In this document: one piece after another, positions 3,728 through 59,787 of the stretch | Position numbering within the stretch: the stretch's first letter is position 1 | Layout of the letters: every line of letters starts with the position of its first letter | Assembly: GCF_015355765.1 (NCBI RefSeq) | Contig: NZ_JACWNA010000013.1 | Span: 1 to 64,000 of the forward strand | Length of the DNA stretch: 64,000 nt | Direction of reading: 5' to 3' | Source: Actinomyces haliotis | GTDB lineage: Bacteria > Actinomycetota > Actinomycetes > Actinomycetales > Actinomycetaceae | Position numbers and translations under genes: made by a program | The notes under the pieces: model-generated | Seen by the model: the letters and a program-made list of their open reading frames with translations, nothing else | What the model was told of the DNA's origin: nothing | Databases searched by the model: none

Positions 3728-3806
3728 AGGGAACCCGATGAGCGGGTCGATCGTGCCGCTGGGGGGCTCGCCGTATGCGGGCCGGGTCGGTGTCGTCGGC
3801 GCGGCC

Positions 3807-3812
3807 TAGCCT
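3807..3812 (+). promoter_or_regulatory. -10 box TAGCCT, leaderless start of the aldo/keto reductase
   Basis: TAGCCT ends 6 nt before the ATG at 3819 and there is no ribosome site between, so transcription would begin at or next to the start codon. Confidence 0.6.
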
Positions 3813-3818
3813 GCTCCC

Positions 3819-4742
3819 ATGAGACTTCAGCCGCTCGGCACCTCCGACCTCACCGTCCCCAACGTCGTCCAGGGGTGCATGCGCATCAACGACATGTCCG
3901 ACGCGGAGATCCGCGCCCTCGTCGACGCGGACCTCGAGGCCGGGATCACCATGTTCGACCACGCGGACATCTACGGCGGTGACCACGCCTGCGAGGAGCG
4001 CTTCGGCACGGCGCTCGACTGGTCCGCCGAGGAGCGCGAGCAGGTAGTCATCCAGTCCAAGTGCGGCATCCGGGACGGCTGGTTCGACTTCTCCGCCGCG
4101 CACGTCCTCGAGGCGGTGGACGGAACGCTGGCCGCCCTGCGGACCGACTACCTCGACGTCCTCCTCCTGCACCGTCCGGACGCCCTCGTCGAGCCCGAGG
4201 AGGTCGCCGAGGCCTTCGACCGTCTCGCGGAGTCGGGCAAGGTCCGTCACTTCGGCGTCTCCAACCACACCCGCGGCCAGATGGAGCTGCTTCGCGCCAC
4301 GGTGAAGCAGCCGCTCGTCGCCGACCAGCTCCAGCTCTCCGTCGCGCACGCGCCGATGATCGCCGAGGGCGTCGCGCTCAACATGTTCGAGGACCAGGCC
4401 ACCTCCCGGACCGGCGAGGTGCTCGACTACTGCCGGCTCACGGGCACCACCGTCCAGGCGTGGTCACCGTTCCAGGCGCCTGGTTGGTCGGGCCCGTTCC
4501 TCGGGGACCGTGAGCGCTACGCCGAGCTCAATGACGTCATCGGCCGCCTCGCGGGCGAGTACAGCGTCGAGCCGGAGGCGATCGCGACGGCGTGGATCAC
4601 GCGTCACCCGGCCCGCATGCAGGTCGTCCTCGGGACGACGCGGATCGAGCGCGTCCGCGCCTGCGCGGCCGGCTCGGAGCTGCCGCTCACCCGGGAGCAG
4701 TGGTACGAGGTCTTCCGGACCGCGGGGCACATCGTCCCGTGA
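3819..4742 (+). CDS. Aldo/keto reductase, YdhF-like
   Basis: NADPH-dependent carbonyl reductase of the AKR superfamily; the physiological substrate is not evident. The catalytic tetrad is readable: D47 (in MFDHAD), Y52 (IYGG), K81 (QSKCG) and H118 (LLLHRP). The 307-aa length and the sequence around GVSNHTRGQ match the YdhF-like branch. The start has no Shine-Dalgarno but a TAGCCT hexamer 6 nt upstream, indicating a leaderless mRNA. Its stop overlaps the GTG start of the exported HNH protein as GTGA, an odd pairing of a cytosolic reductase with an exported nuclease-like protein. Confidence 0.9.
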   Translation: MRLQPLGTSDLTVPNVVQGCMRINDMSDAEIRALVDADLEAGITMFDHADIYGGDHACEERFGTALDWSAEEREQVVIQSKCGIRDGWFDFSAAHVLEAVDGTLAALRTDYLDVLLLHRPDALVEPEEVAEAFDRLAESGKVRHFGVSNHTRGQMELLRATVKQPLVADQLQLSVAHAPMIAEGVALNMFEDQATSRTGEVLDYCRLTGTTVQAWSPFQAPGWSGPFLGDRERYAELNDVIGRLAGEYSVEPEAIATAWITRHPARMQVVLGTTRIERVRACAAGSELPLTREQWYEVFRTAGHIVP

Positions 4743-6231: not shown

Positions 6232-6978
6232 ATGACCAGGATCCCCCCGCACCAACGCAGGTAGCGTCGCGCTGGCCGCCCTCGCGGCCGTCGGAGCGGT
6301 GGGCGCCGTCGGCGCTGCGGCCCGCCGACGGGACCTCGGGGAGTCCCTCCAGCGCGTGCGACCCGGCCTGCGGGCACCTCTGCTCGTCCGCTCCGGTGGC
6401 CGCGAGGTGCCCGCGTGGCTCCACGATCAGGAGCAGGGCGAGCATCCGCGGACCACGTCAGGACAGCTCAGACCAGCCGTCGTGTGGGTCCACGGCGGCG
6501 GCTACGTCGGCGGCGACCCAGCCCAGGAGCACGGCCTGTGCACCCTCATCGCCTGCCGCACCGGCGGGCTCGCCCTCAGCGTGGAGTACCGGCTGCGCGC
6601 CGCAGCACCCCCATCCGGCGGCGCTGGACGACTGCCTCACCGTCCTCACCTGGCTGCACGAGCACGCCGACGAGCTCGGAGTCGACCCCGCCCGCGTCGC
6701 GGCCGGGGGCCCGGCCCGCACGCAGGACCTCTCGGGTCTCCCGGACGGGTGGATCGGGGGCGGCGACCTCGACCTCTTCCTCGACGAGGACCTCGCCTAC
6801 GCGGACCGCCTGCGCGAAGCGGGGGGCACGGGTCGACGTGCGCATCGAGCCGGGGATGTACCACGGCGCCGACTACTGCACGTGGGCGGCCCGGATGCGC
6901 GCCTTCCGGGAGTGCGGTGTCGACGCGCTGGCGCTTGCCCTCAGAGCCGGCGGGTCAGGCGCTCACAGCTCCTCGTAG
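6232..6978 (+). pseudogene. Decayed alpha/beta-hydrolase (esterase/lipase, HGG family)
   Basis: A good ribosome site (CAGGAGG) precedes ATG 6232, but the protein is spread over three frames. A six-C run at 6243-6248 has one base too many: without it the start reads M-T-R-I-P-R-T-N-A. The frame then carries the oxyanion-hole motif HGGGY and ends in SVEYRL; a second extra base near 6594 shifts to the frame reading APQHPHPAALDDCLTVL. A six-G run near 6830 shifts again to RVDVRIEPGMYHGADY, which holds the catalytic His region. Between RVAAGG and DLSGLPDGWIG the GDSAGG nucleophile segment is missing, so this is genuine decay and not only base-calling error. The final frame runs into the convergent reductase gene. 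Confidence 0.85.
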
Positions 6979-7811
6979 GTCGCCGGGTCCTGGTCGGCGA
7001 GGCGTCCGTCGGGACGCCCGAGGGCCGTGATCGCCTCGATCTCCGCGGCGTCGAGAAGGATCTGCGCCGAGGCGAGGTTCTCGACCTGACGCGCCGGCGT
7101 CGAGGACTTCGGGATCGGGGTGACGCCCCGCGAGACGTGCCACGCGAGCACGGCCTGCGCCGGGCTGATGCCGTGCGCCTCGGCGATCCCGGCGATGACG
7201 GGGTCCTGCAGGAGGTCCGAGCTGCGGCCGATGGGGCTCCACGCCTCGGTGAGGATCCCGCGGTCCGCGTCAGCGGCAACCTGCTCCGTGTTCGGGAATC
7301 GCGGGTGCGACTCGATCTGGTTGACGACCGGGAGCACGCCGGTCTCCCGCTCGAGGCGGTCGAGGTGCTCGGGGAGGAAGTTCGAGACGCCGATGGCGCG
7401 CACGAGGCCGCGCTCGCGCGCCTCGATGAGCGCCCGCCAGGTGTCGACGTACTTGTCGAGCCGGGGGTTGGGCCAGTGGATGAGGTAGAGGTCGATCGGG
7501 CCGATCGGCGCCATGCGGGCGGCGGACTCCTCGACGGCGGCCAGCGCCTCGTCGTAGCCGAAGTGACGGCCCGGGACCTTCGAGGTGATGGTGAGCTCGG
7601 CGCGGGCGGCGAGGCCGGCGTCGACGGCGCGGGCGACGCCGAGGGCGACGCTCGCCTCGTTCTCGTAGGAGAAGGCCGAGTCGATGAGGCGGTAGCCGTT
7701 CTCGATGGCGGAGCGGACCGCCTCCGCCCCGGACTCGCCACGGAGCGTGTAGGTGCCGAATCCGACTGCGGGGAGCGTGTACGTGCTGGTCGTGTCCTGC
7801 TGCGTGCTCAT
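6963..7811 (-). CDS. Aldo/keto reductase, 2,5-diketo-D-gluconate reductase type
   Basis: NADPH-dependent reductase of the AKR5-like group. Tetrad residues are D44 (LIDSAF), Y49 (SYENE), K78 (TSKVPG) and H112 (LIHWP), and the cofactor loop PIPKSSTPARQ is near the C-terminus. The 282-aa length is typical. The ATG at 7811 is chosen over longer open frame because family homology starts at residue 12 and a TACGGT hexamer lies 7 nt upstream, a leaderless arrangement. Only distantly related to the reductase at 3.8 kb. It converges on the decayed esterase and follows the HAD gene in the same direction. Confidence 0.9.
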   Translation of the reverse strand: MSTQQDTTSTYTLPAVGFGTYTLRGESGAEAVRSAIENGYRLIDSAFSYENEASVALGVARAVDAGLAARAELTITSKVPGRHFGYDEALAAVEESAARMAPIGPIDLYLIHWPNPRLDKYVDTWRALIEARERGLVRAIGVSNFLPEHLDRLERETGVLPVVNQIESHPRFPNTEQVAADADRGILTEAWSPIGRSSDLLQDPVIAGIAEAHGISPAQAVLAWHVSRGVTPIPKSSTPARQVENLASAQILLDAAEIEAITALGRPDGRLADQDPATYEEL

Positions 7812-7864
7812 GCCGACCACCGTACGCGGAGCCGTCTGCGGCTGCTCACCGAGCCGCTCAGCCC

Positions 7865-8731
7865 CTAGCCGCGGGCCTCGAGGAGCGCGTCGACGGCCCG
7901 GATGACGCCGTTCTCCGTGTTGGCCGGCGCCACGTAGCGGGCGAGCTCCCGAATCTCGGGGTGCGCATTCGCCATGGCGAAGGACGGCCCCGAGAAGGCG
8001 TAGAGGTCGCGGTCGTTGAGGTAGTCGCCGAAGACGGCGGTCTGCTCGGGCGTGACGCCGAGCCGTCGCTGGATGGCGTCCAGGGCCCGGCCCTTCGACG
8101 CGGCCGACGGCATCATGTCGGTCCAGTGAGCGCCGGAGACGACGGTCTGGACGGCGGGGACGGCGGTCCGCAGGTCCGCGGCGGCCTCGCGCTCGATGTC
8201 CCCGAAGTCGTACACGGCGACCTTGAGCACGTCGTCGAGCGGGAGCGCGAGGAGGTCGTCGACGACCTCGAGGGCCGTGTAGTACCGGACGCACTCGTCG
8301 ACGAAGCGCTCGTCACCGCGGTCGACGTAGGCGCAGCGCTTGCAGGCGACGACGGCACCGACGTCGAGGCTCGCCCCCGCGAGGCGCCGCGTCACCTCGA
8401 CGGCTGCGACCGCCTCGTCACGGCTGATCGTGTCGGAGTGGATCTCCTCGTCCCCGACGACGACGAAGGTGCCGTTCTCGGCGATGACGGGGCCGTCGTC
8501 GAGGACGTGGCCGAGGGTGCTGCGCAGGTTCGCGAGCTGGCGGCCCGAGGCCGGGGCGAGGAGCACGCCGGCGTCGCGCCACCGGGCCACGGCCTCGGGC
8601 AGGTCGGCGGGGACGCGGCCCTCGCCGTCGAGCAGCGTCCCGTCCATGTCCGCGATGACGAGTCGGAGATCGGCGGGCTCGTACTGGGAGAAGGGGGTCG
8701 GCTCGGCCGGGGCGTAGGGGGTGTCCGTCAT
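7865..8731 (-). CDS. HAD-superfamily phosphatase, Cof type
   Basis: Cytosolic sugar-phosphate or flavin-phosphate type hydrolase; the exact substrate cannot be read. The nucleophile motif DMDGT is at residues 28-32, the motif II Ser/Thr region reads PASGRQLA, and motif IV is FGDYLND in the last quarter. The cap between has the C2B layout usual for the Cof family, and 288 aa is normal. GAGGAT sits 6 nt before the ATG with no ribosome site, another likely leaderless start. Confidence 0.88.
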   Translation of the reverse strand: MTDTPYAPAEPTPFSQYEPADLRLVIADMDGTLLDGEGRVPADLPEAVARWRDAGVLLAPASGRQLANLRSTLGHVLDDGPVIAENGTFVVVGDEEIHSDTISRDEAVAAVEVTRRLAGASLDVGAVVACKRCAYVDRGDERFVDECVRYYTALEVVDDLLALPLDDVLKVAVYDFGDIEREAAADLRTAVPAVQTVVSGAHWTDMMPSAASKGRALDAIQRRLGVTPEQTAVFGDYLNDRDLYAFSGPSFAMANAHPEIRELARYVAPANTENGVIRAVDALLEARG

Positions 8732-8789
8732 GCTCCCATCCTCTCAGACGGCCGCTGCTCCGCCGTTTCCGGGCTCGTCGGGAGGGACC

Positions 8790-10109
8790 TCACTCGTACC
8801 AGTAGCCGGTGAAGGAGTCCTTGTACACGCGGTAGACGCCGGTGGGCGAGTCGGCGCGGTACTGGGCGATCACCTCCCCGGCTGAGGTCCGCTCCGAGAA
8901 GACGCGGGCCTTCGCCGAGCACACGACGAGGTGGTCCGAGAGCGTGCCGTCGTCGGTGTCGCGCTCGTCGTCGCTGCGGATGCGCAGGGCGTCGGACATG
9001 ACCGAGGAGTACGGGACGTCGACGCGTGCGGCCTCGGCGACCGTTCCCTCGTTCTCGTCAACGAGGTAGCGCAGAATCTCGCTCGCGCCCGTCGTCTCGG
9101 AGGTGGAGGCCTTGGCCGGCCCCATCGTGGAGACGTCGTCGCGGGTGCCCATGTACCAGAGGTTGTTGTTGAACATCTCGAGGTAGTACTGGCCATCGGC
9201 GAGGCTCGGGGCGTCGAGGCGTTGCAGCGAGTGCTGGCCGGCGTTCTCGGAGAAGTTCGTCGTCTTGGTGAGGAACTTCGACTCGTAGCCCGTGCCCTCT
9301 CAGATGTTGGAGGCACCGATGAGGTAGCGGATGGTGGGCGTGCCGGTGCCGGCGCCTGTCGCACCGTCGAGGGCGATGATCGTCGAGGTCTCGCGGGACG
9401 AGAGGTAGACGGTGTCGTCGACGACGTCGACGGAGTTGAGGTGGAGCCAGTCGTTCTTGTCCTGGCCCTCGCGCGCGTGGGTGGTCTCGAGGTACTTGGG
9501 CAGCACCTTGGTCATGTCGATGACGCGGGTGATCTCGCCTGTCGGCACGTCGACGACGAGGACGACGTCCTGGACGGTGGTGCGGTCCGACGAGGAGTCC
9601 GTGGCGAGCACGTACGCGGTGTCCCCGACGGCGTGGACGTCGTGGTGGACGGTGTACCTGCCGAGGTCGATGATGCGCCAGAGGAACCCGGTGGGCTGGA
9701 TGACGCCGAGGGCCGAGGGGCCGACGGTGGTGAGGATGCGCCCGCCGACGGGGATCGGCACCTGCGCGGCGGTCTGCGCCGTCGTGACGATCTCGCCCCG
9801 TTGGGTCCCGTCATTGCCGACGAGGACCGTCGCCTGGCCGTAGCCAATGATCCCCGAGAGGACGAAGAGCCCGTCGGTGAGCTGGGTCCGGGTGCGCGCG
9901 GGGCTCGCGGTGGAGGTGCCGAAGATCGACTGGTTGGCGCTCGTGCCGGCGGATGAGCTCGTGGTGCCGGTCGCTGAGGCGGCCGCGCTCGTGGTGATTG
10001 CGTCGTCGCCCGCCGTGGACCGTCCGATGAGCACTCCCCCGGCACCGGCGACGAGGGCGGCTCCGGCGCCGACGAGGGCGCTGCGACGGTTGAGGCTGGT
10101 GGGCGTCAT
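8790..10109 (-). pseudogene. Arylsulfotransferase-like exported protein interrupted by an in-frame TGA
   Basis: Two frame-matched pieces (10109-9303 and 9299-8790) are separated only by TGA at 9302-9300. The joined product of 439 residues starts with a twin-arginine signal (RR at 8-9, then a hydrophobic run to about 28) and a Ser/Thr-rich linker, and continues with motifs of the aryl-sulfate sulfotransferase family: HHDVH, DWLHLNSV, then GQHS and WYMGT after the stop. The stop lies in ASNI-stop-EGTGYESKF, where a Trp codon (TGG) is the simplest ancestor. The 170 codons beyond the stop remain open and protein-like, so the lesion is recent, a sequencing error, or read through. A GGAGGAG ribosome site precedes the start. 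The family call is moderate. Confidence 0.75.
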
Positions 10110-45518: not shown

Positions 45519-46025
45519 ATGTCCAAGGAGCCCCCGATGCCCCCGAACCCCGTGCCTCCCACCGCCGCCGACCTCGACGAGGTCGTGCGTCGTCTTGCCG
45601 TCATCGACCAGAAGATCGACTGGGTCGCGCGCCGTGTCGCGCTGCCCCACGCACCGGGCGGTCCCGACTACTCCACGTCGGCCGTCGCTCGCACGTCCGC
45701 GGCAGACCGTTCTCGACTCGCGGACGCTGGTGGGACTGCCGGGTCGAGCCCGACCGGCCGTCCGCCCGCCGTGGCCCCGGTGAGGACGCGCCCGGCGGCG
45801 TCCCGGGCCCTCCCGCTCGCGGAGGCGCCGTCAGCACTGAGCACCTCGTCTGATGGCACCGGCATGGCGACCGCCGAGCGACGGCAGCGGCCAGTGGGGC
45901 GAGCGCTTCCGGCCGCCGAGCCGCTGAGGTGCCGTCCGTGCCCGCAGACCGCGCGCCGGCACGGTCGGAGTGGACCGCCCGGGGGCGGGATGCCCCTCAT
46001 CCCACCCCCGGGCGGTTCCGCGTGA
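45519..46025 (+). CDS. Uncharacterised Pro/Ala/Arg-rich protein, possibly truncated
   Basis: Not recognised. Gene signals are good: TAGCCT at 45494-45499, AAGGA at 45506-45510 and ATG 8 nt later. The first 45 residues form a Pro-rich tail and one amphipathic helix (ADLDEVVRRLAVIDQKID). The remainder is low-complexity, and its last codons run through the hairpin at 45974-46016, which natural genes usually avoid. It could be the surviving 5' end of a longer gene whose frame was lost, or a short disordered protein. Confidence 0.4.
   Translation: MSKEPPMPPNPVPPTAADLDEVVRRLAVIDQKIDWVARRVALPHAPGGPDYSTSAVARTSAADRSRLADAGGTAGSSPTGRPPAVAPVRTRPAASRALPLAEAPSALSTSSDGTGMATAERRQRPVGRALPAAEPLRCRPCPQTARRHGRSGPPGGGMPLIPPPGGSA
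45974..46016. terminator. Hairpin shared by uvrA and the 45.5-kb gene
   Basis: 17-bp stem with one C-A mismatch and a 9-nt loop, 18 bp past the uvrA stop on the minus strand. Confidence 0.7.
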
Positions 46026-46034
46026 AGATCCGCC

Positions 46035-48893
<2,859 letters not shown>

Positions 48894-48901
48894 AACGCGT
48901 G

Positions 48902-48907
48902 AGTCTA
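48902..48907 (-). promoter_or_regulatory. -10 box TAGACT, leaderless uvrA
   Basis: Eight bases between TAGACT and GTG 48893. No SOS-box-like palindrome is seen in the 105-bp divergent region. Confidence 0.55.
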
Positions 48908-48986
48908 GGTGGGCCCCTCGTCCCGCTCATACAGGTGTTCGACGGTGGCGGGCGAGTGATTCGCCACGTGCGCGGGCCGACGCCGA

Positions 48987-48992
48987 TAGGCT
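48987..48992 (+). promoter_or_regulatory. -10 box TAGGCT, leaderless yciI-like gene
   Basis: TAGGCT then GCTCCC then ATGAG; the text from the hexamer on is nearly identical to the start of the reductase at 3.8 kb (TAGCCT, GCTCCC, ATGAG). Confidence 0.6.
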
Positions 48993-48998
48993 GCTCCC

Positions 48999-49283
48999 AT
49001 GAGCAAGATCTTCGCAGTCGAGTACCACTACGTCACGGACAAGGACGACGAGATGGCCGTCGTCCGCCCCTCCCACCGCGCCTTCAACGGCGAGCTCGCG
49101 AAGGAGGACCGTCTGCTGGCGGCCGGTCCCTACGTGGGCACGCACGACGCGCTCATCATCGTCCGTGCCGAGGACGCCGAGGGCGCCCTGGCCCTGCTCG
49201 ACGACGACCCCTTCCACAAGAACGGCTTCATCGCCGAGCGGATCCCGCACGAGTACGACCCGGTCATCGGCATCCTCCACTGA
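48999..49283 (+). CDS. YciI-like (YCII domain) protein
   Basis: A 94-residue ferredoxin-like fold protein; the family signature runs from FAVEYHYV through SHRAFNGELAKEDRLLAAGPY to LLDDDPFHKNGFIAERIPHEYDPVIG. His and Asp residues proposed as catalytic in this family are present (SH at 24-25, DDDPF). Biochemical role not established. Divergent from uvrA, leaderless start. Confidence 0.88.
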   Translation: MSKIFAVEYHYVTDKDDEMAVVRPSHRAFNGELAKEDRLLAAGPYVGTHDALIIVRAEDAEGALALLDDDPFHKNGFIAERIPHEYDPVIGILH

Positions 49284-49312
49284 GGCCGGCTCCGCCCTCG
49301 ACGCGTACCCGG

Positions 49313-51532
49313 TCACGGCTGCCATCGCCGCTGAGCCGCACGCGCGGCGGTGCCAGCCATGATGGCGACGATGATCGCCGTGGTTCCTGTCAACGCCAGG
49401 CACATGATCGAGTAGGCCGGGCTCGGACGCCACAGGAGGTCGAAGCTGTCGTCCGTCGCCTGGGCCATGCCAAGCGGAAGCACGGCGTAGAGAACGGTGG
49501 ACACTCCCCCTGTCAGGACCGTGACCAGTGCCGTGCGCCACGCCGCTGCTCGCGACGCGGTCCGCCCTGCGCCCGCGACCACGGACAGCCGGGCAAACAG
49601 CTCTGCTGTGTGCGCGTTGGCGAGCACGAGCGCGCACCCGAGGACGAGGCAGACCGTGCCGATCCCCACGGCACCGAAGACGATGGTCCACCGTGACTGG
49701 AGTCGTGTCACGGTTCCGGCCACCATCCACTGATCCGTGACAGAGCTTATCTGTGCTCCCGGCAACAGCCGGTTGAGGGTCCGGGACCACGAGGCCAGAT
49801 CGAGGTTGTTGCCCTTGGAGGACACGAGATAGACCGTGTTTGAGAGCACGCCGGTTGAGGCAGTCATAGCCGAGTCCGTGGCCACGACGACGCGGACATC
49901 GTCGAACGCCGTGAGCTCAGGAACCTGAGCCAGGACATACGGGGGCAACGGATCGTCTTGGCCACCGACCTCGTGGGGCTCACAGCGCTGGTTCCAGTCG
50001 GTGAGGACGGCACACGACGCCGCAACGGTTACGACGTCGCGAACGCCACCCTCCGTCGTGGTCTCCTCAACCATCACCTGCACGAGATCCGTACCACTTC
50101 CGGCCAGTCGTGGTCTGATCACGGAGAGGACGTCGTCCGGTTCCCCACTCACCATGGCGATGCTCTGCCCCCAGTCAGAGATCTGTTCTTCCGCCCGGAG
50201 GTATTGAGGTGCGAGTGCACCCACCCACAGCTGGATCTGGCCACCCATGATCACGGCGAGGCCGATGCCGACGGCAAGGTGACGGCTCGTTCGAGAGAGT
50301 CGTCCGACTTGTCTCCCAGCCAGAAGGAGCGACGGGCGGGACCATCGAAGTCCGGCACGCGCCACAACCATCCCCACGCCTCGACAGGCGGCGTCGATCA
50401 CTCCCGGCAGTCCGATGATGACGAGCAGCACGCCTGCGAAGTAGACGATCAGCTTGTTGGGACTCATGGGGTTCCACAACGGAAACCAGACAGCGAGCAG
50501 GATGCCGGTGAGCAGGAGGACCAGCGGAGACAGCCGCGTCGGCATGCGCTCGCTCCGTGATCGCAGGAGCGGTCGTCGATAGTGTCCCCCAGCAACCATC
50601 ACGATCAGCACGCTGAGGAGCATCCCCGCGATGAGCGCCATGGCCATCGGGCCGACGACCTTTCGCGTGTCTGCCGCGGGGAAGCTGCTGTCGAGCCAGG
50701 CGACGTGGATGTCCGTGGTCAGGGCAATGCCGATGAGCGCGCAGGTCATGGCGTGACCGGCTGCCAGGGCTGGCGCAGCGCCCACAAGATCCACGATGGC
50801 GAGATCGCGTCGCCTCATACCCATGCTGATGAGTGCAGCCGAACGCCTCTGGCTCTCCTCATCCTTCAGCCGTGCCGCGATGACGACAGCTCCGACCGCC
50901 GGAACGATCAGTGACAGAACGAGGAGGAGGCTGACATCCCCCGGATGAGCGGCGTAGAGGCTACCTTCACCCGCGTACGGTGTGCCTCTGGCGTCCGTCC
51001 CGAAGCCACAGATGGGCTCCATGTCTGACGGACGCAGGCTGGAGTCCAAGGGCCGCATGTACACGCGTCGTTCTTGGGGCGTCTCCAGCCCCTCGAGAGA
51101 AATACGTGACGTGACGTGGCCATACCTGCCCGCAAGGTCACCCGTGAGATCCGTGCCGAGTGCCGGCGAAACCGCTGCCTCGCCGGGGCCAGGCCACGCG
51201 CTCAGCCCAGGCGGAAGTGGTGCGTCCTCACTCAGGGGCGCAATCACGATGACGGTCACTGGCCTGAAGCCCACCTGGTCAAGACCACCGAACTCATAGA
51301 GTGCCGTGGCGTCAGGGCGGTCACAGATCCTCGGTACCAGAGCAGCAGCACGATCCTGGTGGAGGTCGTACGCACCCCACACGATCGCTAATGACACGAA
51401 GGCGCAGCTGAGGAGGCATGTTGCCAGGGCCAGGCACGCGGATCGTGCCACTCGGACAGGCAAGGACGAGCAACGAGCCAGTGCCTGCCCCGTCCGGACC
51501 AGACCCCGTATGAGATGCCACGACCTTCTCAC
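49313..51532 (-). CDS. FtsX-like ABC permease of the secreted-peptide cassette
   Basis: A 739-aa integral membrane protein. A first helix (about 33-55) is followed by an extracytoplasmic domain to about 200; three or four helices fall between 200 and 390; after LLAGRQVGRL comes a second long soluble domain (about 450-610), and the last helices lie in 615-730. This two-half layout and length resemble the large permeases paired with lactococcin-972-type peptides and MacB-like exporters. The GTG start overlaps the ATPase stop as GTGA. Composition is visibly less GC-rich, with more A- and T-ending codons than the flanking genes, consistent with transfer. Confidence 0.75.
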   Translation of the reverse strand: MRRSWHLIRGLVRTGQALARCSSLPVRVARSACLALATCLLSCAFVSLAIVWGAYDLHQDRAAALVPRICDRPDATALYEFGGLDQVGFRPVTVIVIAPLSEDAPLPPGLSAWPGPGEAAVSPALGTDLTGDLAGRYGHVTSRISLEGLETPQERRVYMRPLDSSLRPSDMEPICGFGTDARGTPYAGEGSLYAAHPGDVSLLLVLSLIVPAVGAVVIAARLKDEESQRRSAALISMGMRRRDLAIVDLVGAAPALAAGHAMTCALIGIALTTDIHVAWLDSSFPAADTRKVVGPMAMALIAGMLLSVLIVMVAGGHYRRPLLRSRSERMPTRLSPLVLLLTGILLAVWFPLWNPMSPNKLIVYFAGVLLVIIGLPGVIDAACRGVGMVVARAGLRWSRPSLLLAGRQVGRLSRTSRHLAVGIGLAVIMGGQIQLWVGALAPQYLRAEEQISDWGQSIAMVSGEPDDVLSVIRPRLAGSGTDLVQVMVEETTTEGGVRDVVTVAASCAVLTDWNQRCEPHEVGGQDDPLPPYVLAQVPELTAFDDVRVVVATDSAMTASTGVLSNTVYLVSSKGNNLDLASWSRTLNRLLPGAQISSVTDQWMVAGTVTRLQSRWTIVFGAVGIGTVCLVLGCALVLANAHTAELFARLSVVAGAGRTASRAAAWRTALVTVLTGGVSTVLYAVLPLGMAQATDDSFDLLWRPSPAYSIMCLALTGTTAIIVAIMAGTAARAAQRRWQP

Positions 51533-52290
51533 CGGCGATCCACCGTCTCCGGAACGAGGCAGCCGTCGCGCAGGACCATGACTCGGTCAGCCGTGGCTGA
51601 AACCTCAGGATCATGTGTCACGATGAGAAGGGCGCATCGCGTCGAGGCTACGAGAGCCGCGAGGTCGCGTAGCACGAGATCCCGAGAGGACGGATCGAGA
51701 GATCCCGTCGGTTCATCTGCCAGAAGGAGAGATGGTTCATTGACACACGCACGAGCAATTGCGATGCGTTGACGCTCCCCGCCTGAGAACGACTCGGTGG
51801 GGCGATTGGCGGTCTGGACACCCAGCTGGCTGAGGGCCTCCGTGGCCAAGCGCCTCGCCTCCGCTGTGGAGTGCCCCTCGATCAGAGCGGGAAGCATGAC
51901 GTTCTCCAGCGGAGTCAGCTCATCGACAAGGTATCCATCCTGAAAGACCACACCCATGTACTCCCGCCGAAGTCGGGCACCAAGATCGGTGGCGCCACAT
52001 GGCACACGGTGGCCACACACAAAGACCTCGCCCTCGAATGGCCGAATCAATCCAAGAACAGCAGACAGAAGTGTCGACTTACCCACCCCGGAGGTACCCG
52101 TGATCGCAACGGTCTCTCCAGGTCGGATCGAGAGGTCAATCTTGTTCAGGACCGTGCGATCTCCGAACCTCACCGAGAGGTTGGAGACGGAGAGCACCTG
52201 GTCCGCCGGACGTTGAGGTGCTCTCCGTCCAGCCCGCCGGCCCCGGTGACCAGCCAGCGATCGAAGGCGGCCAATCGAGTTCAGCGCCAT
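51529..52290 (-). CDS. ABC transporter ATPase, MacB/LolD-like
   Basis: Nucleotide-binding subunit for the permease downstream. Walker A GTSGVGKST near residue 65, Q-loop VVFQDGYLVDELTPLENVMLP, signature SFSGGERQRIAIARA, Walker B SLLLADEPTGSLD and switch His in VTHDPEV. Such ATPases drive mechanotransmission or peptide export. Starts possible at ATG 52290 or GTG 52299; both lie inside the 3' end of the peptide gene, so translation is coupled. The N-terminal 30 residues are basic. Confidence 0.88.
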   Translation of the reverse strand: MALNSIGRLRSLAGHRGRRAGRRAPQRPADQVLSVSNLSVRFGDRTVLNKIDLSIRPGETVAITGTSGVGKSTLLSAVLGLIRPFEGEVFVCGHRVPCGATDLGARLRREYMGVVFQDGYLVDELTPLENVMLPALIEGHSTAEARRLATEALSQLGVQTANRPTESFSGGERQRIAIARACVNEPSLLLADEPTGSLDPSSRDLVLRDLAALVASTRCALLIVTHDPEVSATADRVMVLRDGCLVPETVDRR

Positions 52291-52595
52291 GCGCTGCACA
52301 GGTCAGGTTGGCGCTGGCGGTTGACACAGGCTCGGAGGCTCGTAACCGTGAAGGAATAGTGCGCCTTGACGGTTGTTCCGCTACCGCTGTTGTTATCCAG
52401 CCGGTGTGCCGTGTTGTTCGCGTTCCCGTACACGGAATGAGCGTCCGCCTTCATGTCCTTGACATTGAGGTCAAGACCCTGGTTCCAAACATACGCAGCT
52501 CCGTCACTCGTCTGCGCAACGTGTGCCATCGCAGGTGGTGCGACTGTCAGCGTCGAGAGGAGAAGAATACTGATGAGGGATCGACGATGCTTCAT
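52281..52595 (-). CDS. Secreted small protein, putative bacteriocin-like peptide
   Basis: 104 residues with a clear signal peptide: basic MKHRR, hydrophobic SLISILLLSTLTVAPP and a cleavage site AMA before His25. The mature part of about 80 residues (SDGAAYVWNQG, then SGSGTTVKAHYSF) ends in ACVNRQRQPDLCSAW, whose two Cys could form a disulfide. I do not recognise the family. It is first in a three-gene unit with an ABC ATPase and a large permease, the arrangement of lactococcin-972-type clusters, but the mature sequence lacks the repeated aromatic pattern of lactococcin 972. GGAG precedes the ATG, and a promoter is visible 47 bp upstream. Confidence 0.72.
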   Translation of the reverse strand: MKHRRSLISILLLSTLTVAPPAMAHVAQTSDGAAYVWNQGLDLNVKDMKADAHSVYGNANNTAHRLDNNSGSGTTVKAHYSFTVTSLRACVNRQRQPDLCSAWR

Positions 52596-52641
52596 CTAGG
52601 ACTCCATCGTCGTAGAGAGGATCGAACGTGTGGACACGAAA

Positions 52642-52668
52642 ATCATAGAACGAATTGGGGGGGTACAA
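52642..52668 (-). promoter_or_regulatory. Promoter of the secreted-peptide cassette
   Basis: Minus strand: TTGTAC (52668-52663), a 15-bp spacer with a C-run, and TATGAT (52647-52642). The near-consensus AT-rich -10 is unlike the TAGnCT boxes elsewhere in the window. Confidence 0.6.
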
Positions 52669-52743
52669 GAGTTGGGCCCACCTCCGAGCACGCGAGGTCG
52701 GATCGTCATGGCATGGACGGCGGTCAGTGACGCTCAGGGGATC

Positions 52744-55284
52744 TCAGCCCTCTCGCGTAGCCCTGCGCTCCTCGTGCTCCCCGACCCGGTCCTGGAGCCG
52801 CAGTACCCAGCGGGCGACGGCGAGGGCCTGGATCCCGGCGACGGCGGCTCCTCCCCCGACGGCGACCGCTGTCCAGGTCCGCCACGTCGGCCACGCGAGC
52901 AGGAAGAACTCGCGGACGACGGGGATGAGGACGCCGAGGACGGCGGCACCTGCCATGAGGAGGATGAGGCCCAGGCGCCAGCCGAGCAGCGGCTTGGCCG
53001 TCAGGGTGAGGAGCCACAGTCCGGCGATGACGAGAACGAGCGTCGCTCCCGTCGTCACCTGCTCGCTCGCGGCTCCCGTCATCTCGAGCCACTGGCGCGT
53101 CATGAGGGTCGTGGTCCCGGCGACGAGGCCGGCCGGCACGGCGAGCCCGAGGACGCGCGGGAGGAAGCCGGCGCGGTATCGCTGCGAGTTCGGGGCGAGC
53201 GCGAGCACGAAGGCGGGGATGCCGATCGTCAGCGAGGAGACGATGGTGAGCTGCCGGGGCTGGAACGGGTAGCTGATGGCGGTGATCGCGACGACGACGG
53301 CGATGAGGCTCGCGTAGACCGTCTTGGCGAGGAAGAGGCTCGCGATCCGCTCGGTGTTCGCCATGACGCGTCGTCCCTCAGCGACGACGCCGGGCAGGGC
53401 GGAGAACTCGCCGGACAGGAGCACCATGCGGGCGACCGCCTTCGTGGCGGGAGCGCCGTTGCCCATGGCGATGCCGAGGTCCGCCTCCTTGAGGGCGAGG
53501 GAGTCGTTGACGCCGTCGCCGGTCATAGCGACGGTGCGGGACCGGTGGTGGAGGGCCTGGACGACGGCCTTCTTCTGCTCGGGGGTGACACGGCCGAGCA
53601 CCTGGGCGTCGTCGAGGGCGGCGGCGAGGCGCTCGAGGTCCTCGGGGTCGGAGACCTCGGTGGGCAGCTCCCGGGCGTCCAGCGCCACGGGTGCGGCGCC
53701 GTCGGGTCCCTGGACTCCCGCGCGGCGCGCGACAGCGGCGACGGTGACCGGGTTGTCCCCGGAGATGACCTTGACGGTGACGCCCTGCTCGCGGAAGTAC
53801 CCGAGGGTCTGGGCCGCGTCGGAGCGGACCTCCTCCGTGAGCTCGACGAGGCCGGCGGCCGTGAGCCCGTCGGGAAGCACCGCGTCGCCGTCAGGAGCGG
53901 TGCCGAAGGAGCTGCCGCCGTGGGCGAGGGCGACGACGCGGACACCGTCCTCGGACAGCTCCCGGGCCCGCTCGAGGAGCGCGGTGGCGCCGTCGGCGGC
54001 GTCGAGGACGATCTCGGGGGCGCCCATGACCCAGGCCTCGCCGTCGAGGACCGTCCCGGACCACTTGCGGCGCGAGGAGAAGGCGACGGCCGAGTGCGTG
54101 CGAGGCAGGATGCCGGAGACCCCGGGGAGGAGGTGCAGCTCGGTGGACCCGGTGACCTCGGTGTCCGTGAGCGCGGTGAGGACCGCCTCGGCGGTGGCGT
54201 TGGGCTCGCTGCCGCCGGTGAGGGCGAGCAGCGGATCGCGCAGGTCTCCGGCGGGCAGCCCCTCCCCCGTATCCCCGTCAGGCCCAGGTGCGACGGGCTC
54301 GCCGTCGGCGCCGAGTACCTCGCGCAGGGTGATGCGTCCGGTGGTGAGCGTGCCGGTCTTGTCCAGGCAGAGCGTGTCGACGCGGGCGAGCACCTCAACG
54401 GCAGGCAGCTCCTGGACGAGGACGTCCTGCCGGGCGAGCTTGAGGGAGGCGGTCGCGAAGTTGACGCTCGTGAGCAGGACGAGGCCTTGCGGCACCATGC
54501 CGACGACGCTCGCCACCGCTGCGACGAGGGCGACCCGCCACTGGCCTGAGGAGAGTGACTGAGAGACGGAGCCGTCGAGACGCATCTGGGACCACAGGAC
54601 GAGCAGCCCGACGGGCACGATGACCCAGGAGATCCAGGTGAGGATCCGGTTGGTGCCCTCCTGCAGCTCGGAGCGGACGACCGAGTAGCGGCGCGCCTCG
54701 GTGGCGAGGCGGTTGGCGTAGGCGTCGGCACCGACGGCTGTCGTGCGCACGACGGCGCTGCCGGAGGTGACGGTCGTGCCCGACATGACGGTGTCGCCGA
54801 CCTCGGGGCGCACAGCGTCGGACTCGCCGGTGAGGATGGACTCGTCGACCTCGAGGCCGTCGACCTGGAGCACCTCGGCGTCCGCTGGCACCTGCTCGCC
54901 GGCGCGCAGGCGCAGCACGTCGTCGAGGACGATGGCGCCGACCTCGACGTCGGACTCGTGCCCGTCGCGGACGACGTGGGCGACCGGTGCGTCGAGCACC
55001 GAGAGCCTGTCCAGGGCCCGCTTGGCGCGGATCTCCGCCAGGGTGCCGGTGGCCGTGTTGAGGACGAGGACGAAGCCGAAGAGCGCGTCGGCCCAGTGGC
55101 CGAAGACGAGGGTGAGGACGAGGGCCGTCGTGATGATCGCGTTGAAGATCGTGAAGACGTTGGCGCGCAGGATCTGCCCGGCGGAGCGCGAGGTGCGGGT
55201 GCGCAACTCGTTGGTGCGCCCGTCCCGGACGCGCTGCGCGACCTCCGCGCTGCTCAGGCCTGTCTCTGCGAGTCCCCGCGTCAC
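52744..55284 (-). CDS. Cation-transporting P-type ATPase (CtpE-like)
   Basis: Membrane pump of 846 aa. The phosphorylated Asp308 lies in CLDKTGTLT, TGES is at 152-155 and GDGVND near 600. The fourth transmembrane helix has GMVPQGLVLLTSVNFA, similar to the M4 motif of mycobacterial CtpE, linked to calcium uptake; heavy-metal CPx motifs and N-terminal metal-binding domains are absent. The GTG at 55284 overlaps the TerC stop as GTGA, so it is coupled to a probable metal-handling operon. Ion specificity (Ca or Mn) is inferred only. Confidence 0.85.
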   Translation of the reverse strand: MTRGLAETGLSSAEVAQRVRDGRTNELRTRTSRSAGQILRANVFTIFNAIITTALVLTLVFGHWADALFGFVLVLNTATGTLAEIRAKRALDRLSVLDAPVAHVVRDGHESDVEVGAIVLDDVLRLRAGEQVPADAEVLQVDGLEVDESILTGESDAVRPEVGDTVMSGTTVTSGSAVVRTTAVGADAYANRLATEARRYSVVRSELQEGTNRILTWISWVIVPVGLLVLWSQMRLDGSVSQSLSSGQWRVALVAAVASVVGMVPQGLVLLTSVNFATASLKLARQDVLVQELPAVEVLARVDTLCLDKTGTLTTGRITLREVLGADGEPVAPGPDGDTGEGLPAGDLRDPLLALTGGSEPNATAEAVLTALTDTEVTGSTELHLLPGVSGILPRTHSAVAFSSRRKWSGTVLDGEAWVMGAPEIVLDAADGATALLERARELSEDGVRVVALAHGGSSFGTAPDGDAVLPDGLTAAGLVELTEEVRSDAAQTLGYFREQGVTVKVISGDNPVTVAAVARRAGVQGPDGAAPVALDARELPTEVSDPEDLERLAAALDDAQVLGRVTPEQKKAVVQALHHRSRTVAMTGDGVNDSLALKEADLGIAMGNGAPATKAVARMVLLSGEFSALPGVVAEGRRVMANTERIASLFLAKTVYASLIAVVVAITAISYPFQPRQLTIVSSLTIGIPAFVLALAPNSQRYRAGFLPRVLGLAVPAGLVAGTTTLMTRQWLEMTGAASEQVTTGATLVLVIAGLWLLTLTAKPLLGWRLGLILLMAGAAVLGVLIPVVREFFLLAWPTWRTWTAVAVGGGAAVAGIQALAVARWVLRLQDRVGEHEERRATREG

Positions 55285-56270
55285 TCGCTCCTCCTCGTGT
55301 GGATACCGCTCGTCACGGCGACGAGCACGAGCGTCACGATGATGACCCCGAGCGAGACCGTCGTCGACGGCTCCGGGACGGCCAGGATCGGCTCGCCGCC
55401 GTTGAGCCACGAGAAGCTGTTCTCATGGAGGGCGTGGTTGATGAGCTTGAAGCCGATGAAGCCGAGGATGACGGCCAGGCCGTAGGGCAGGTAGACGAGG
55501 CGCTCGAGGAGGCCGTCGATGAGGAAGAACAGCTGCCGCAGCCCCAGCAGTGAGAAGGCCGTCGCGCTGAAGACGAGGAAGGGCTCCTGGGTCAGCCCGA
55601 AGATCGCCGGGATGGAGTCGAAGGCGAACATGAGGTCCGCGGTGCCGAGCGCGATGACGCAGATGAAGAGGGGCGTGATGCGGGTCCGGCCCGCGTGGCG
55701 GTGGATGAGGCGGTTGCCGACGAAGCCGTCGGAGACGGGCACGACCTTGCGGATGAGGCGGGTGACGCCGTTGTCCACGTACTCCATGCCGTCGTCCGGC
55801 TCGCCGTCGTCGCCGAGGGCATCGGTGACCTGCTTGACCGCCGTGTAGAGGAGGAACGCGCCGAAGAGGTAGAAGATCCAGCTGAAGCGCTCGATGAGGG
55901 CGGCGCCGAGCAGGATGAAGACGAGACGGAGCACGAGGGCGATGACGATGCCCAGGAGCAGCGCCTTCTGCTGGTACTGCCTCGGCACGTGGAACGCCCC
56001 CATGATGAGGATGAAGACGAAGAGGTTGTCGACGCTGAGCGACCACTCGGTGAGCCAGCCCGCGAAGAACTCCTGACCGGGTACGGCGCCGTAGACCGCC
56101 CAGATGACCGCGCCGTACACGGCTGCCAACGCCATGTAGCCGAGGGTCCACGTCGTCGCCTCGCGCATGGTGGGCGGGTGCGGGTTTCGGGCGTGGCCGA
56201 GGAAGTCGACGGCGAGCAGCCCGACGACGATGACGCCGAGGGCGGCCCAGGCGACGGGGTGGACGATCAT
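55281..56270 (-). CDS. TerC-family membrane protein, copy 1
   Basis: 329-aa protein with about eight or nine hydrophobic segments. The family's acidic motifs are SLSVDNLFVF near residue 78 and MFAFDSIPAIF. Bacillus TerC proteins export manganese or supply it to secreted enzymes; older annotations cite tellurite resistance. A CAGGAG site precedes the ATG. It lies 111 bp after terC copy 2 and overlaps the P-type ATPase start. No riboswitch-like motif in the 111-bp gap. Confidence 0.9.
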   Translation of the reverse strand: MIVHPVAWAALGVIVVGLLAVDFLGHARNPHPPTMREATTWTLGYMALAAVYGAVIWAVYGAVPGQEFFAGWLTEWSLSVDNLFVFILIMGAFHVPRQYQQKALLLGIVIALVLRLVFILLGAALIERFSWIFYLFGAFLLYTAVKQVTDALGDDGEPDDGMEYVDNGVTRLIRKVVPVSDGFVGNRLIHRHAGRTRITPLFICVIALGTADLMFAFDSIPAIFGLTQEPFLVFSATAFSLLGLRQLFFLIDGLLERLVYLPYGLAVILGFIGFKLINHALHENSFSWLNGGEPILAVPEPSTTVSLGVIIVTLVLVAVTSGIHTRRSE

Positions 56271-56381
56271 GCGTGTGCTCCTGACGGAGGCGGGGCGCCG
56301 GTGGCGTCAGGTTGCTCCAGGGTGGGACGGGTCAGTGGTGGCGGGTGCGCGCGGTGCGCTTGTGTCCGGGCGCGAGGCCGC

Positions 56382-57407
56382 TCAGCCCGTGGGCTCCGAC
56401 TCCGCGCCGGCCTCGCGTCGGGTGGGGACTGGCCGGGAGGAGAGCAGCGACGCGACGACGGTGAGGACGATCGTGACGACGATGAAGCCGAGCGAGACGG
56501 CGATCGACGGCTCCGGGATGACGTCCCAGTGCTCGCCGCCGTTGATGAGGGGCACCTCGTTGGTGTGCAGGGCGTGGTTGACGAGCTTGAGCCCGATGAA
56601 GCCGAGGATCGCCGCGAGGCCGTAGTGGAGGTAGACGAGTCGGTCGAGGAGCCCGTCGATGAGGAAGTAGAGCTGTCGCAGGCCGAGCAGGGAGAAGGCG
56701 TTGGCCGCGAAGACGAGGTACGCCTCCTCCGTGAGCGAGTAGATCGCGGGGATGGAGTCGACGGCGAACATGACGTCGGCCGTCCCGATCGCCACCATGC
56801 ACAGGAGCATGGGCGTGATCATGGTGCGGCCGTGCGCGCGGTGGATGACCTTGCCGCCGACGAAGCCGTCGGTGACGGGGACGACGCGGGAGACGAGACG
56901 GACGAGGCGCGAGGGCCGGTACTCCTCGCCGTCGTGCTCCTCCGGAGTCTCGACGCCCTCGCGCGCCTGGGAGATCGCGGTCCACAGCAGCCACGCCCCG
57001 AAGACGTAGAAGATCCAGGAGAAGCTCTCGATGAGGGCGGCACCGAGGAGGATGAAGACGAGCCGCAGGACGAGGGCGGTGACGATGCCCGCGAGGAGGA
57101 CCTCCTGCTGGTACCGCCGGGGCACCTTGAAGCCGGCGATCATGATGACGAAGAGGAAGAGGTTGTCGACGCTGAGGGCCTTCTCGGTGACATAGCCCGC
57201 GAAGTACTCCTGCCCGTACTCGGCTCCCCAGAGGGCCCAGACGACGCCCCCGAAGACGACGGCGATGGCGACGTAGGCGAGCGACCACCATGCGGCCTCG
57301 CGGATCGTGGGCTCGTGCGGGCTTCGCACGTGCCCGACGACGTCGACGGCGATCATGACGAGGATGATCGCGGCGAGCGCGATCCATCCGAGGGCGTGGA
57401 CGTCCAT
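56382..57407 (-). CDS. TerC-family membrane protein, copy 2
   Basis: 341-aa paralog of the adjacent TerC, alignable along its length (ALSVDNLFLFVIM, FAVDSIPAIYSLTEEAYLVF). Start ATG 57407 follows GGAGG; the longer frame upstream is the riboswitch leader read as protein. First gene of a likely three-gene operon terC-terC-ATPase behind a yybP-ykoY-like leader, so manganese-dependent expression is expected. The tandem copies probably arose by duplication but are now clearly diverged. Confidence 0.9.
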   Translation of the reverse strand: MDVHALGWIALAAIILVMIAVDVVGHVRSPHEPTIREAAWWSLAYVAIAVVFGGVVWALWGAEYGQEYFAGYVTEKALSVDNLFLFVIMIAGFKVPRRYQQEVLLAGIVTALVLRLVFILLGAALIESFSWIFYVFGAWLLWTAISQAREGVETPEEHDGEEYRPSRLVRLVSRVVPVTDGFVGGKVIHRAHGRTMITPMLLCMVAIGTADVMFAVDSIPAIYSLTEEAYLVFAANAFSLLGLRQLYFLIDGLLDRLVYLHYGLAAILGFIGLKLVNHALHTNEVPLINGGEHWDVIPEPSIAVSLGFIVVTIVLTVVASLLSSRPVPTRREAGAESEPTG

Positions 57408-57690: not shown

Positions 57691-59787
57691 TCAGGAGGTC
57701 GCGCGCATGTCGCGCAGCTCCTTCTTGAGGTCCTGGATCTCGTCGCGCAAGCGGGCGGCGAGCTCGAACTGGAGGTCCTCGGCGGCCTGGTGCATCTGGT
57801 CGGTGAGGTCGCCGATGAGCTGGACGAGGTCCGACTCGGCCGCGCCGGCGAGCTTCTCGCGGACGGTGGTCTCCGCGGCCTTCTTACGCCGGGACTTGAC
57901 GGCGGCCTCCTCGTGGCCGCGGTAGCCGCCGGCGAGGAGCTCCTCGGTGTCGACGTCCTCGCGGGCGAGCATGTCGGTGACGTCGGCGATCTTCTTGCGG
58001 AGGGGCTGCGGGTCGATGCCGTGCTCGGTGTTGTAGGCGAGCTGCTTCGTGCGGCGGCGCTCGGTCTCCTCGATGGCCTCGGCCATGGCGGGCGTGATCT
58101 TGTCCGCGTACATGTGCACCTCGCCCGAGACGTTGCGGGCCGCGCGTCCGATCGTCTGGATGAGGGAGCGGGTGGAGCGCAGGAAGCCCTCCTTGTCCGC
58201 GTCGAGGATGGAGACGAGGGAGACCTCGGGCAGGTCGAGCCCCTCGCGCAGGAGGTTGATGCCGACGAGGACGTCGAACTGGCCGAGCCGCAGCTCACGC
58301 AGGAGCTCGACGCGGCGCAGCGTGTCGACGTCGGAGTGGAGGTACTCGACGCGCACGCCCCGGTCGGCGAGGTAGGTGGTGAGGTCCTCCGCCATGCGCT
58401 TGGTGAGGGTCGTGACGAGCACCCGCTCGTCCTTGTCGGTGCGGCGGCGGACCTCCTCGAGGAGGTCGTCGATCTGGCCCTCGGTCGGCTTGACGACGAT
58501 CTTTGGGTCGACGAGGCCGGTGGGTCGGATGATCTGCTCGACGACGCCGTCGGACAGGTTCATCTCGTAGTCGCCGGGCGTGGCGGACAGGTAGACGGTC
58601 TGGCCGATGCGGTCCTCGAACTCGCCGAAGGTGAGGGGGCGGTTGTCGAGCGCCGAGGGCAGGCGGAAGCCGTGGTCGACCAGCGTGCGCTTGCGGGAGG
58701 CGTCGCCCTCGTGCATGGCGCCGATCTGCGGGACGGTCACGTGGGACTCGTCGATGACGAGGAGGAAGTCCTCCGGGAAGTAGTCGAGGAGGGTGTTCGG
58801 CGGGGTGCCCGGCGAGCGGCCGTCGATGTGCATCGAGTAGTTCTCGACGCCGGAGCAGGTGCCGATCTGCTTGAGCATCTCGAGGTCGTAGGTGGTGCGC
58901 ATGCGCAGCCGCTGGGCCTCGAGGAGCTTGCCGTCGCGCTCGAGGACCTGGAGGCGCTCGGCGAGCTCGTCCTCGATGCCCTCGATGGCGCGGCCGAGGC
59001 GCTCGGGGCCGGCGACGTAGTGGGAGGCCGGGAAGATGAAGACCTGGTCCACCGTGTCGATGACGTCGCCGGTGACGGGGTGGAGGGTGGCGAGGGACTC
59101 GATCTCGTCGCCGAAGAACTCGATGCGGATCGCGAGCTCCTCGTACATGGGGATGATCTCGACCGTGTCCCCGCGCACGCGGAAGGTGCCGCGCGTGAAG
59201 TCGATGTCGTTGCGCGTGTACTGCATGCCGACGAAGCGACGCAGGAGGTCGTCACGGTCGATCTGCTCCCCCACGGACAGCGGGGTCATGCGGTCGACGT
59301 ACTCCTGCGGCGTGCCCAGTCCGTAGATGCAGGACACCGAGGAGACGACGACGACGTCGCGCCGCGTGAGGAGGTTGTTCGTCGCGCTGTGCCGCAGGCG
59401 CTCGACCTCGTCGTTGATGGAGGAGTCCTTCTCGATGAAGGTGTCCGTCTGCGGGACGTAGGCCTCCGGCTGGTAGTAGTCGTAGTAGGAGACGAAGTAC
59501 TCGACGGCGTTGTTGGGCAGGAGCTCGCGGAACTCCGCAGCCATCTGGGCGGCGAGCGTCTTGTTGGGCTCGAGGATGAGGGTGGGGCGCTGGACCTGCT
59601 CGACGAGCCAGGCCGTCGTCGCCGACTTTCCCGTACCGGTGGCGCCGAGCAGGACGATGTCCTTCTCCCCCGCGTTGAGCCGCTCCGTCAGCTCCTTGAT
59701 GGCGGTGGGCTGGTCACCGCTGGGCTGGTACGGGCTGATGACCTCGAAGGGCTTCTCGGCACGGCGGAGGTCGGTGACGGGGCGCAT
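57691..59787 (-). CDS. uvrB: Excinuclease ABC subunit B
   Basis: Helicase-like damage verification subunit. Walker A GATGTGKS at residues 48-55, the beta-hairpin [16 protein letters not shown] near 101, helicase motifs [11 protein letters not shown] and QTIGRAARN, and a C-terminal UVR domain ([20 protein letters not shown]) that contacts UvrC. 698 aa. TAGCCT-GGCGCC-ATG is the same leaderless start layout as pgi. Follows pcp-coaE, in the order rpsA-coaE-uvrB common to actinobacteria. Confidence 0.97.

Follow-up and report, generated by a model that had tools for sequence, protein, structure and literature searches.

Several described bacteriocin systems combine a small secreted peptide with the genes of an ATP-binding cassette (ABC) transporter. 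The best known is the lactococcin 972 (Lcn972) family, which includes Lcn972, streptococcin B and mediterrocin, and whose members are unmodified peptides with a Sec-type signal encoded beside a two-gene ABC system. A cassette on the same plan, with a peptide of similar size, lies within 64,000 nucleotides of Actinomyces haliotis DNA (assembly GCF_015355765.1, contig NZ_JACWNA010000013.1, positions 1 to 64,000 of the forward strand). This whole stretch is referred to here as the window. The cassette is read, by a modest balance of probability, as a Sec-secreted bacteriocin with a MacB-superfamily ABC transporter that confers immunity, carried as a mobile unit and belonging to an apparently undescribed family.

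Plasmid occurrence and loci that hold only the ABC genes are further features shared with the Lcn972 family. The ABC-only state is common in pneumococcus: passages of a study of 571 genomes report a complete scbABC locus in 414 and scbBC only in 157 (PMC11796350). The same passages describe lactococcin 972 as a beta-sandwich and state that what the B and C genes do is unverified in any Lcn972 locus. The visible rows of a table in another report give minimum inhibitory concentrations of 800-1600 arbitrary units (AU)/ml with cloned lcn972 clusters that include orf2-orf3, against 12.5 for the host (PMC4055356).

Among actinobacteria, propionicin T1 and thoenicin 447 of Propionibacterium offer a comparable arrangement. 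In the excerpts available, the peptide has a Sec leader (96 residues, 65 in the mature form) and is followed by an ABC gene that is thought to confer resistance (PMC5756557). This comparison, made by description and not by peptide sequence, differs in that one ABC-type gene is described there and not an ATPase-permease pair. The actifensins are bacteriocins of the genus Actinomyces itself and have ABC genes nearby. According to parts of the report on them, they are defensin-like peptides of 37 residues with six cysteines, encoded in a larger operon, and are set apart by size and cysteine count (PMC6989792).

Loss of the peptide and retention of the pump

The state of peptide and permease was surveyed in 14 regions fetched from the genus and in the window. 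Both are intact in four: the window, two regions of genome G005 and contig 10 of G034. In another four (G014, G063, G013 and contig 11 of G034) the permease is full-length and the peptide is not intact. The peptide gene was not found in G014 and G063; in G013 the signal-sequence part is recognisable and the mature part is gone, and on contig 11 of G034 a broken remnant is left. In five further regions (contig 8 of G034, G009 twice, G002 and G030) the permease is broken or fragmentary, and a peptide was not found. There is no peptide in G012, where the permease lies in two frames in an assembly that is only 82% complete.

The ratio of nonsynonymous to synonymous substitutions (dN/dS) was estimated for three of the four peptide-less permease loci, contig 11 of G034 being without a close partner. 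Values for the permease are 0.22 between G014 and G063, 0.15 and 0.22 when each of these is compared with G005, and 0.16 between G013 and contig 10 of G034. The ATPase of the last pair gives 0.06. The first-pass annotation, made from the sequence of the window, had named a bacteriocin, a signalling peptide and a peptide-sensing system as possible roles. The bacteriocin is the best supported of the three, since the peptide has been lost several times while the ABC genes stay open with dN/dS below 1, and since complete cassettes occur on Streptomyces plasmids.

The peptide, its transporter and their relation to lactococcin 972

The three genes lie head to tail on the minus strand between positions 49313 and 52595, in the order peptide-ATPase-permease (Table 1). 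The open reading frames (ORFs) were confirmed at the coordinates first assigned to them, as were the overlaps. The peptide and ATPase genes share 19 bp when the longest ATPase start is taken, and the ATPase and permease genes share 4 bp. Of the remaining initial observations, the unusual composition stood, and those on the gene neighbourhood, the Lcn972-like order, the promoter and the permease match had to be corrected.

Table 1. Coordinates of the cassette, its parts and the genes on either side, in window positions
Feature	Position	Strand	Basis
Whole insert	49289..52767		Limits are the homology break against the empty site of genome G031 (L174)
Peptide gene, 104 residues	52281..52595	-	ORF; 23 aligned homologues
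Signal-peptide part, residues 1-24	52524..52595	-	Read from sequence
C-terminal loop with Cys90 and Cys100 codons	52296..52328	-	Peptide alignment
ABC ATPase, MacB/LolD/FtsE type	51529..52299	-	PF00005; overlaps peptide gene
Permease, 739 residues	49313..51532	-	ORF; 10 predicted membrane spans, two FtsX-type halves
Permease, predicted extracellular domain 1, residues 51-199	50936..51382	-	Hydropathy
Permease, predicted extracellular domain 2, residues 436-618	49679..50227	-	Hydropathy
Gap 5′ of peptide gene, expected promoter site	52596..52743	-	No promoter recognised
yciI, flanking, outside cassette	48999..49283	+	PF03795; adjoins uvrA across genus
P-type ATPase gene, flanking, outside cassette	52744..55410	-	ORF, family match, genus neighbourhood

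The ATG of the peptide gene is preceded by GGAG. Residues 1-24 are the predicted signal and residues 25-104 the predicted mature form (80 residues, calculated mass 8764 Da, isoelectric point 8.8). The signal was read from the sequence and not by a predictor program; it has a basic start and a hydrophobic core and ends in ...PPAMA just before His25, in line with the mature start first proposed. Residues A22 and A24 are near-invariant across 23 aligned peptides. The two cysteines noted at the outset close to the C-terminus, Cys90 and Cys100, correspond to a pair that is invariant in all 23, with a spacing of 9-11 residues. A frequent pattern comprises a D-T-x-x-D stretch, a G-x-G-T-T segment (the SGSGTT noticed earlier in the window) and A-C ... 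C-S-x-W. The alignment omits L086, with an in-frame stop before the second cysteine, and L075, with a stop just after a nearby ATG. Nor does it include the extra copies of L075 and L090, any of the phylum-level peptides (L116-L123) or the plasmid peptides L214-L216.

An AlphaFold model of the mature peptide with three natural relatives has seven strands and no helix (predicted local distance difference test, pLDDT, 77.9; predicted template modelling score, pTM, 0.70), the last ten residues, which include one of the two cysteines, being poorly modelled. On this model the mature peptide is probably all-beta.

Neither Pfam nor NCBIfam nor PADLOC offered a convincing family for the peptide, and phage records gave no match. 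Single members of the family matched OMP_b-brl (L084, 9.5e-5, 23.1 bits against a cut-off of 28.7) and R_equi_Vir (one of the 23 peptides, 4.8e-4), and both matches were set aside together with further single-member matches among the 23 that were poorer than the latter. OMP_b-brl and R_equi_Vir are both beta-protein families and could be a remote lead. The top matches of the peptide profile in a PDB sequence search were antibody chains (E 0.0096 and worse) and were dismissed.

The ATPase matches PF00005 at 1.7e-30, and its matches to the LolD, L_ocin_972_ABC, FtsE and MacB models all fall below the curated cut-offs. The window permease matches no Pfam or NCBIfam model. Its initial description as FtsX-like is sustained by its relatives and its topology, and not by a family match of the window protein itself. 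Of 20 aligned permeases, 7 have the FtsX domain PF02687, the window protein not being one of them, and the domain is placed on the first half of the chain in both matching proteins of five that were examined. Hydropathy averaged over the 20 permeases gives ten hydrophobic segments, grouped 1+3, 2 and 1+3. In the predicted order, transmembrane segment (TM) 1 is followed by about 150 residues that form an outer domain, then by TM2-4, TM5-6 and TM7, a further outer domain of about 180 residues, and TM8-10. The FtsX domain in relatives and this topology place the permease with the FtsX/MacB superfamily. Its best conserved 80 residues (81-160) lie inside predicted outer domain 1, and domain 2 is less conserved.

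As generally understood, the MacB-superfamily transporters LolCDE, BceAB and MacB resemble the present pair in the LolD/MacB type of the ATPase and in the FtsX-type topology of the permease. They differ in that the permease here joins two FtsX halves in a single chain, each half bearing a large predicted outer domain; BceB has only one large outer domain. A PDB sequence search with the permease gave one match (E 0.0073), which was dismissed, and a first contig scan of genomes with the window permease found no relative. A reading of the cassette as phage defence was rejected, PADLOC having no match for the peptide or the permease. The ATPase matches 18 PADLOC models that contain an ATPase (best mad3, 1.6e-27), which any ABC ATPase would be expected to do.

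The gene order and sizes of the cassette had initially been likened to Lcn972-type clusters, with the reservation that the mature peptide lacks the pattern of that family. The reservation proved sound. Aligned by hhalign to the Lcn972 mature profile, the mature peptide reaches a probability of 0.9% (E 0.065), a value that does not beat the best of 20 column-shuffled controls (E 0.061); in the positive control, two subsets of seven rows each, drawn from the peptide alignment, find each other at 98.9%. Another peptide-Lcn972 comparison gave 40.7%, in an alignment that begins in the signal peptides. None of the 23 peptides matches PF09683 (E up to 0.5). The permease profile scores 0.0% against the DUF1430 permease profile, a pair for which no control was run. 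PF07242 is matched by none of the 20 permeases (E up to 0.1) and by both of the Lcn972-locus permeases tested.

The likeness in gene order did not hold. Five Lcn972 loci with an ABC system were examined and read peptide-permease-ATPase, one with an extra small gene, whereas the window reads peptide-ATPase-permease. Most members here have the C-terminal cysteine pair, in contrast to the G-x-W ... S-x-Y-x-H pattern of Lcn972; the ATPase usually precedes the permease, and the permease has two large predicted outer domains. The present family has been seen only in actinobacteria, where most searches were made. Membership of the Lcn972 family is rejected on sequence by the peptide and permease profiles. 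The link first drawn to Lcn972-type clusters is thus one of analogy, and the likeness, as far as can be judged from sequence, is one of shared plan and not of descent.

Lcn972-type peptides themselves occur in actinobacteria. One is encoded on a Streptomyces plasmid (L101), with no ABC gene listed beside it, and others are found on two short stretches (L094, L095).

Distribution and insertion site

A peptide profile built from five rows of the genus has matches in 20 of 396 genomes of the order. Sixteen of the 19 loci outside the window's own genome were fetched, and the weak matches in G352, G357 and G088, inside long ORFs, were left out. In an early peptide scan, the matches of 12 more genomes had E above 0.05 and were regarded as chance. 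An ATPase lies within the same gene run in all 16 loci and a permease in 14, the other two ending at contig edges. In six of the fetched loci, from distant relatives, the permease precedes the ATPase. Permease distances are 0.82 both within and between the two gene orders, and no claim of two clean subtypes is therefore made.

All three genes were found by profile in each of seven Streptomyces plasmid records matched by the peptide, with annotated or open permeases of about 720-730 residues. In the six annotated plasmid loci the peptide is labelled "hypothetical protein" in six and the permease in five. As a control, 20 arbitrary 14-kb stretches from the same genome samples were examined; none had a peptide or permease match, and one had ATPase matches. 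No conserved fourth gene stands beside the cassette among ORFs of at least 90 residues in 23 loci. The longest member of each of the two largest shared ORF clusters (12 loci each) overlaps the cassette genes on the opposite strand, and the next cluster (4 loci) is presumably transposase-like.

A Nostocoides locus (L075) holds two peptide-ATPase-permease cassettes consecutively (1111-4294 and 6736-10032), the second peptide gene having an in-frame stop right after a nearby ATG. In Georgenia satyanarayanai P7 (L098, 5926-6264) the signal and mature parts of the peptide seem to lie in different frames, through sequencing error or decay.

Judged by these matches, the cassette apparently belongs to an undescribed family scattered through Actinomycetota. 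The titles, abstracts and passages of the open-licence literature that were available contain no description of it.

The insertion can be delimited against G031, a close relative of the window (97% identity in UvrA, 92% in the P-type ATPase and 91% in TerC). This genome aligns to positions 45975-49288 (93.6% of nucleotides) and 52768-56500 (89.1%), and between yciI and the P-type ATPase gene it has 142 bp where the window has 3479 bp. The cassette had been thought to interrupt a uvrA-uvrB neighbourhood. It does enter a conserved block, which in the genus reads uvrA-yciI-P-type ATPase-terC, but it does so between yciI and the P-type ATPase gene, and the gene that we take to be uvrB is further off (57691-59787).

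A survey of this site started from 48 genomes with a yciI match, among them the window's own and four occupied ones; G016, G017 and G020 were not fetched, and G002 has no yciI match. The cassette is at the yciI site in none of the 40 other genus genomes fetched. The order uvrA-yciI-P-type ATPase is visible in 39 of them, and the remaining one ends at a contig edge. A related ABC system lies between uvrA and yciI, on the opposite side of yciI from that of the window, in G005, G014, G063 and G012. It is absent there from G030, which has 98% DNA identity to G014 over the uvrA side. The neighbourhood has therefore probably been entered twice.

Within the genus, the gap between yciI and the P-type ATPase gene seems to have received insertions repeatedly (L183, L188, L196, L200, L203, L204, L208). 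In other genomes it holds ORFs that we take to be aldehyde-dehydrogenase-like, transposase-like or oxidoreductase-like, or an ORF of low guanine-plus-cytosine (GC) content. A second terC-like gene follows the first in the window (56508-57344, 63% identical to the first TerC) and in L174 (10129-11103, 60%).

The cassette has a GC content of 63.9%, and the remainder of the window one of 71.2%. At third codon positions (GC3) the cassette genes have 0.65-0.75, and the other long ORFs listed have 0.82-0.98; these ORFs were chosen partly for GC3 > GC1 > GC2, so that the contrast is somewhat favoured. The codon-adaptation index is 0.23-0.30 in the cassette and 0.54-0.84 in 20 window ORFs (no leave-one-out). 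The lower GC noted at first sight was recovered, and codon use is foreign. The AT-rich promoter that had been assigned to the cassette was not recovered: the 148-bp upstream gap has 58.1% GC, and no sigma-70-like match was found in it. The 150 bp with the lowest GC in the window (52%, 52521-52670) cover the 5′ end of the peptide gene and the sequence upstream.

Recent transfer of the cassette into the Actinomyces chromosome is supported by the empty site, the foreign codon use and the patchy occurrence. The initial interpretation has therefore held in part, with recent transfer upheld and the link to Lcn972 reduced to an analogy.

Functional readings of the cassette

A Sec-type signal, read from the sequence, and a linked two-gene ABC system are both found at the locus. 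In the proposed scheme, the peptide would be made with its Sec signal, cut after residue 24 and released as 80 residues, closed near the C-terminus by a disulphide between Cys90 and Cys100. Once released, it may act on related bacteria, with the cell envelope as the most likely target. Together, the ATPase and the duplicated FtsX-type permease would form a MacB-superfamily pump that does not export the peptide, as Sec can do so. This pump would remove the peptide from the membrane or the target and so protect the producer. Sequence shows that the cassette moves between species and onto plasmids and that relatives often lose the toxin gene and keep the pump; the pumps retained without a peptide perhaps serve as resistance. 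A bacteriocin with a MacB-superfamily immunity pump requires the fewest steps, the readings as accessory subunit, exporter or signal explaining less, and it is favoured here with moderate confidence. It draws on the linkage of the three genes, the lack of a conserved fourth gene, the signs of transfer, the loss of the peptide beside a kept pump, the pneumococcal parallel and the predicted beta fold.

A number of observations weigh against a bacteriocin with its immunity pump. Genome G004 has an intact peptide ORF and a fragmented permease, which is awkward if the permease is essential for self-protection. In the published pneumococcal work, streptococcin B producers inhibited strain D39, which has scbBC only, and equally D39 from which the locus is absent (PMC11796350); an ABC system kept without its toxin thus need not protect there, at least uninduced. 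The dN/dS values are simple pairwise estimates, and those for the ATPase within the G005 group (0.33-0.52) are only moderately low. The correlation between peptide and permease distances, measured over the 20 of 23 loci for which the permease sequence was available (Mantel r 0.51, 0 of 9999 permutations), counts for the bacteriocin reading but is confounded with species relatedness. When the permease is searched first, matches are found in 9 of 248 genomes of the order, and 7 of the 12 loci outside the window's own genome have an upstream peptide, although four of the seven had been reached from the peptide as well. In three loci no peptide is seen in the part of the upstream stretch that is visible, and the other two end at contig edges.

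The peptide is also less uniform than the alignment of 23. Three ABC-linked peptides outside it (L118, L121 and that of the first L075 cassette) have no C-terminal cysteine pair, which shows that the family can do without the disulphide loop. Just two of five structure models exceed a pLDDT of 70. With a wider profile, 6 of 396 genomes of the phylum give a peptide match, one of them being the window's own, and only two of eight peptide regions fetched from the other five genomes have an ABC match. Two of the six regions without one hold tandem copies of small secreted relatives, four in L119 (G562) and two in L120 (G762). From the regions without ABC, the peptide fold is probably wider than the cassette.

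The strongest competitor of the bacteriocin sees in the peptide no toxin but an extracellular partner of the ABC transporter, a subunit that would help the transporter to sense the envelope or to work on it. Accessory proteins serve other FtsX-type systems. The tight linkage, the overlapping genes, the correlated divergence and the location of the best conserved part of the permease in outer domain 1 would all suit a partner. Such a subunit is unlikely, as four genus loci have a full-length permease and no intact peptide, with dN/dS below 1 in the three tested, and as six of the eight phylum-level peptide regions lack ABC.

It is more doubtful still that the ABC system is a dedicated releaser or exporter of an antibacterial peptide and not its immunity factor. 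The gene linkage would agree with this, and related MacB-superfamily pumps can move substrates outward from the outer face of the membrane. However, full-length pumps outlive the peptide, and a Sec-type signal makes an exporter unnecessary, an argument set out for propionicin T1 (PMC5756557) and, in similar words, for mediterrocin (PMC12345188), in the passages available from both papers.

A pheromone-like signal that is sensed or removed by the ABC transporter is improbable. The peptide is small and secreted and varies between species, but 80 residues, probably folded, are large for a pheromone, and neither a regulator nor a kinase nor any other fourth gene is conserved in the 23 loci. Peptide sensing, as first suggested, is less likely than a bacteriocin for the same lack of a fourth gene. 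Least probable is a divergent true member of the Lcn972 family: the same three components and the beta-sandwich described for lactococcin 972 (in passages of PMC11796350), beside the all-beta prediction here, speak for it, and the peptide profile within its shuffled controls, the null permease comparison (itself without a control) and the lack of PF09683 and PF07242 matches speak against it.

Beyond a bacteriocin with its immunity pump at this one locus, a broader proposal is put forward tentatively, with a little less than even confidence. The cassette may represent a new family of folded, Sec-secreted bacteriocins that is unrelated to Lcn972, mostly has a C-terminal disulphide loop and brings its own duplicated-FtsX immunity pumps, spread through the chromosomes and plasmids of Actinomycetota. 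The toxin-free pumps would then amount to widespread cross-resistance, and the tandem copies without ABC in Streptomyces-like genomes would be a further branch of the toxin fold. If true, this would add an unannotated bacteriocin family to the actinobacteria, one that the peptide and permease profiles would make easy to find.

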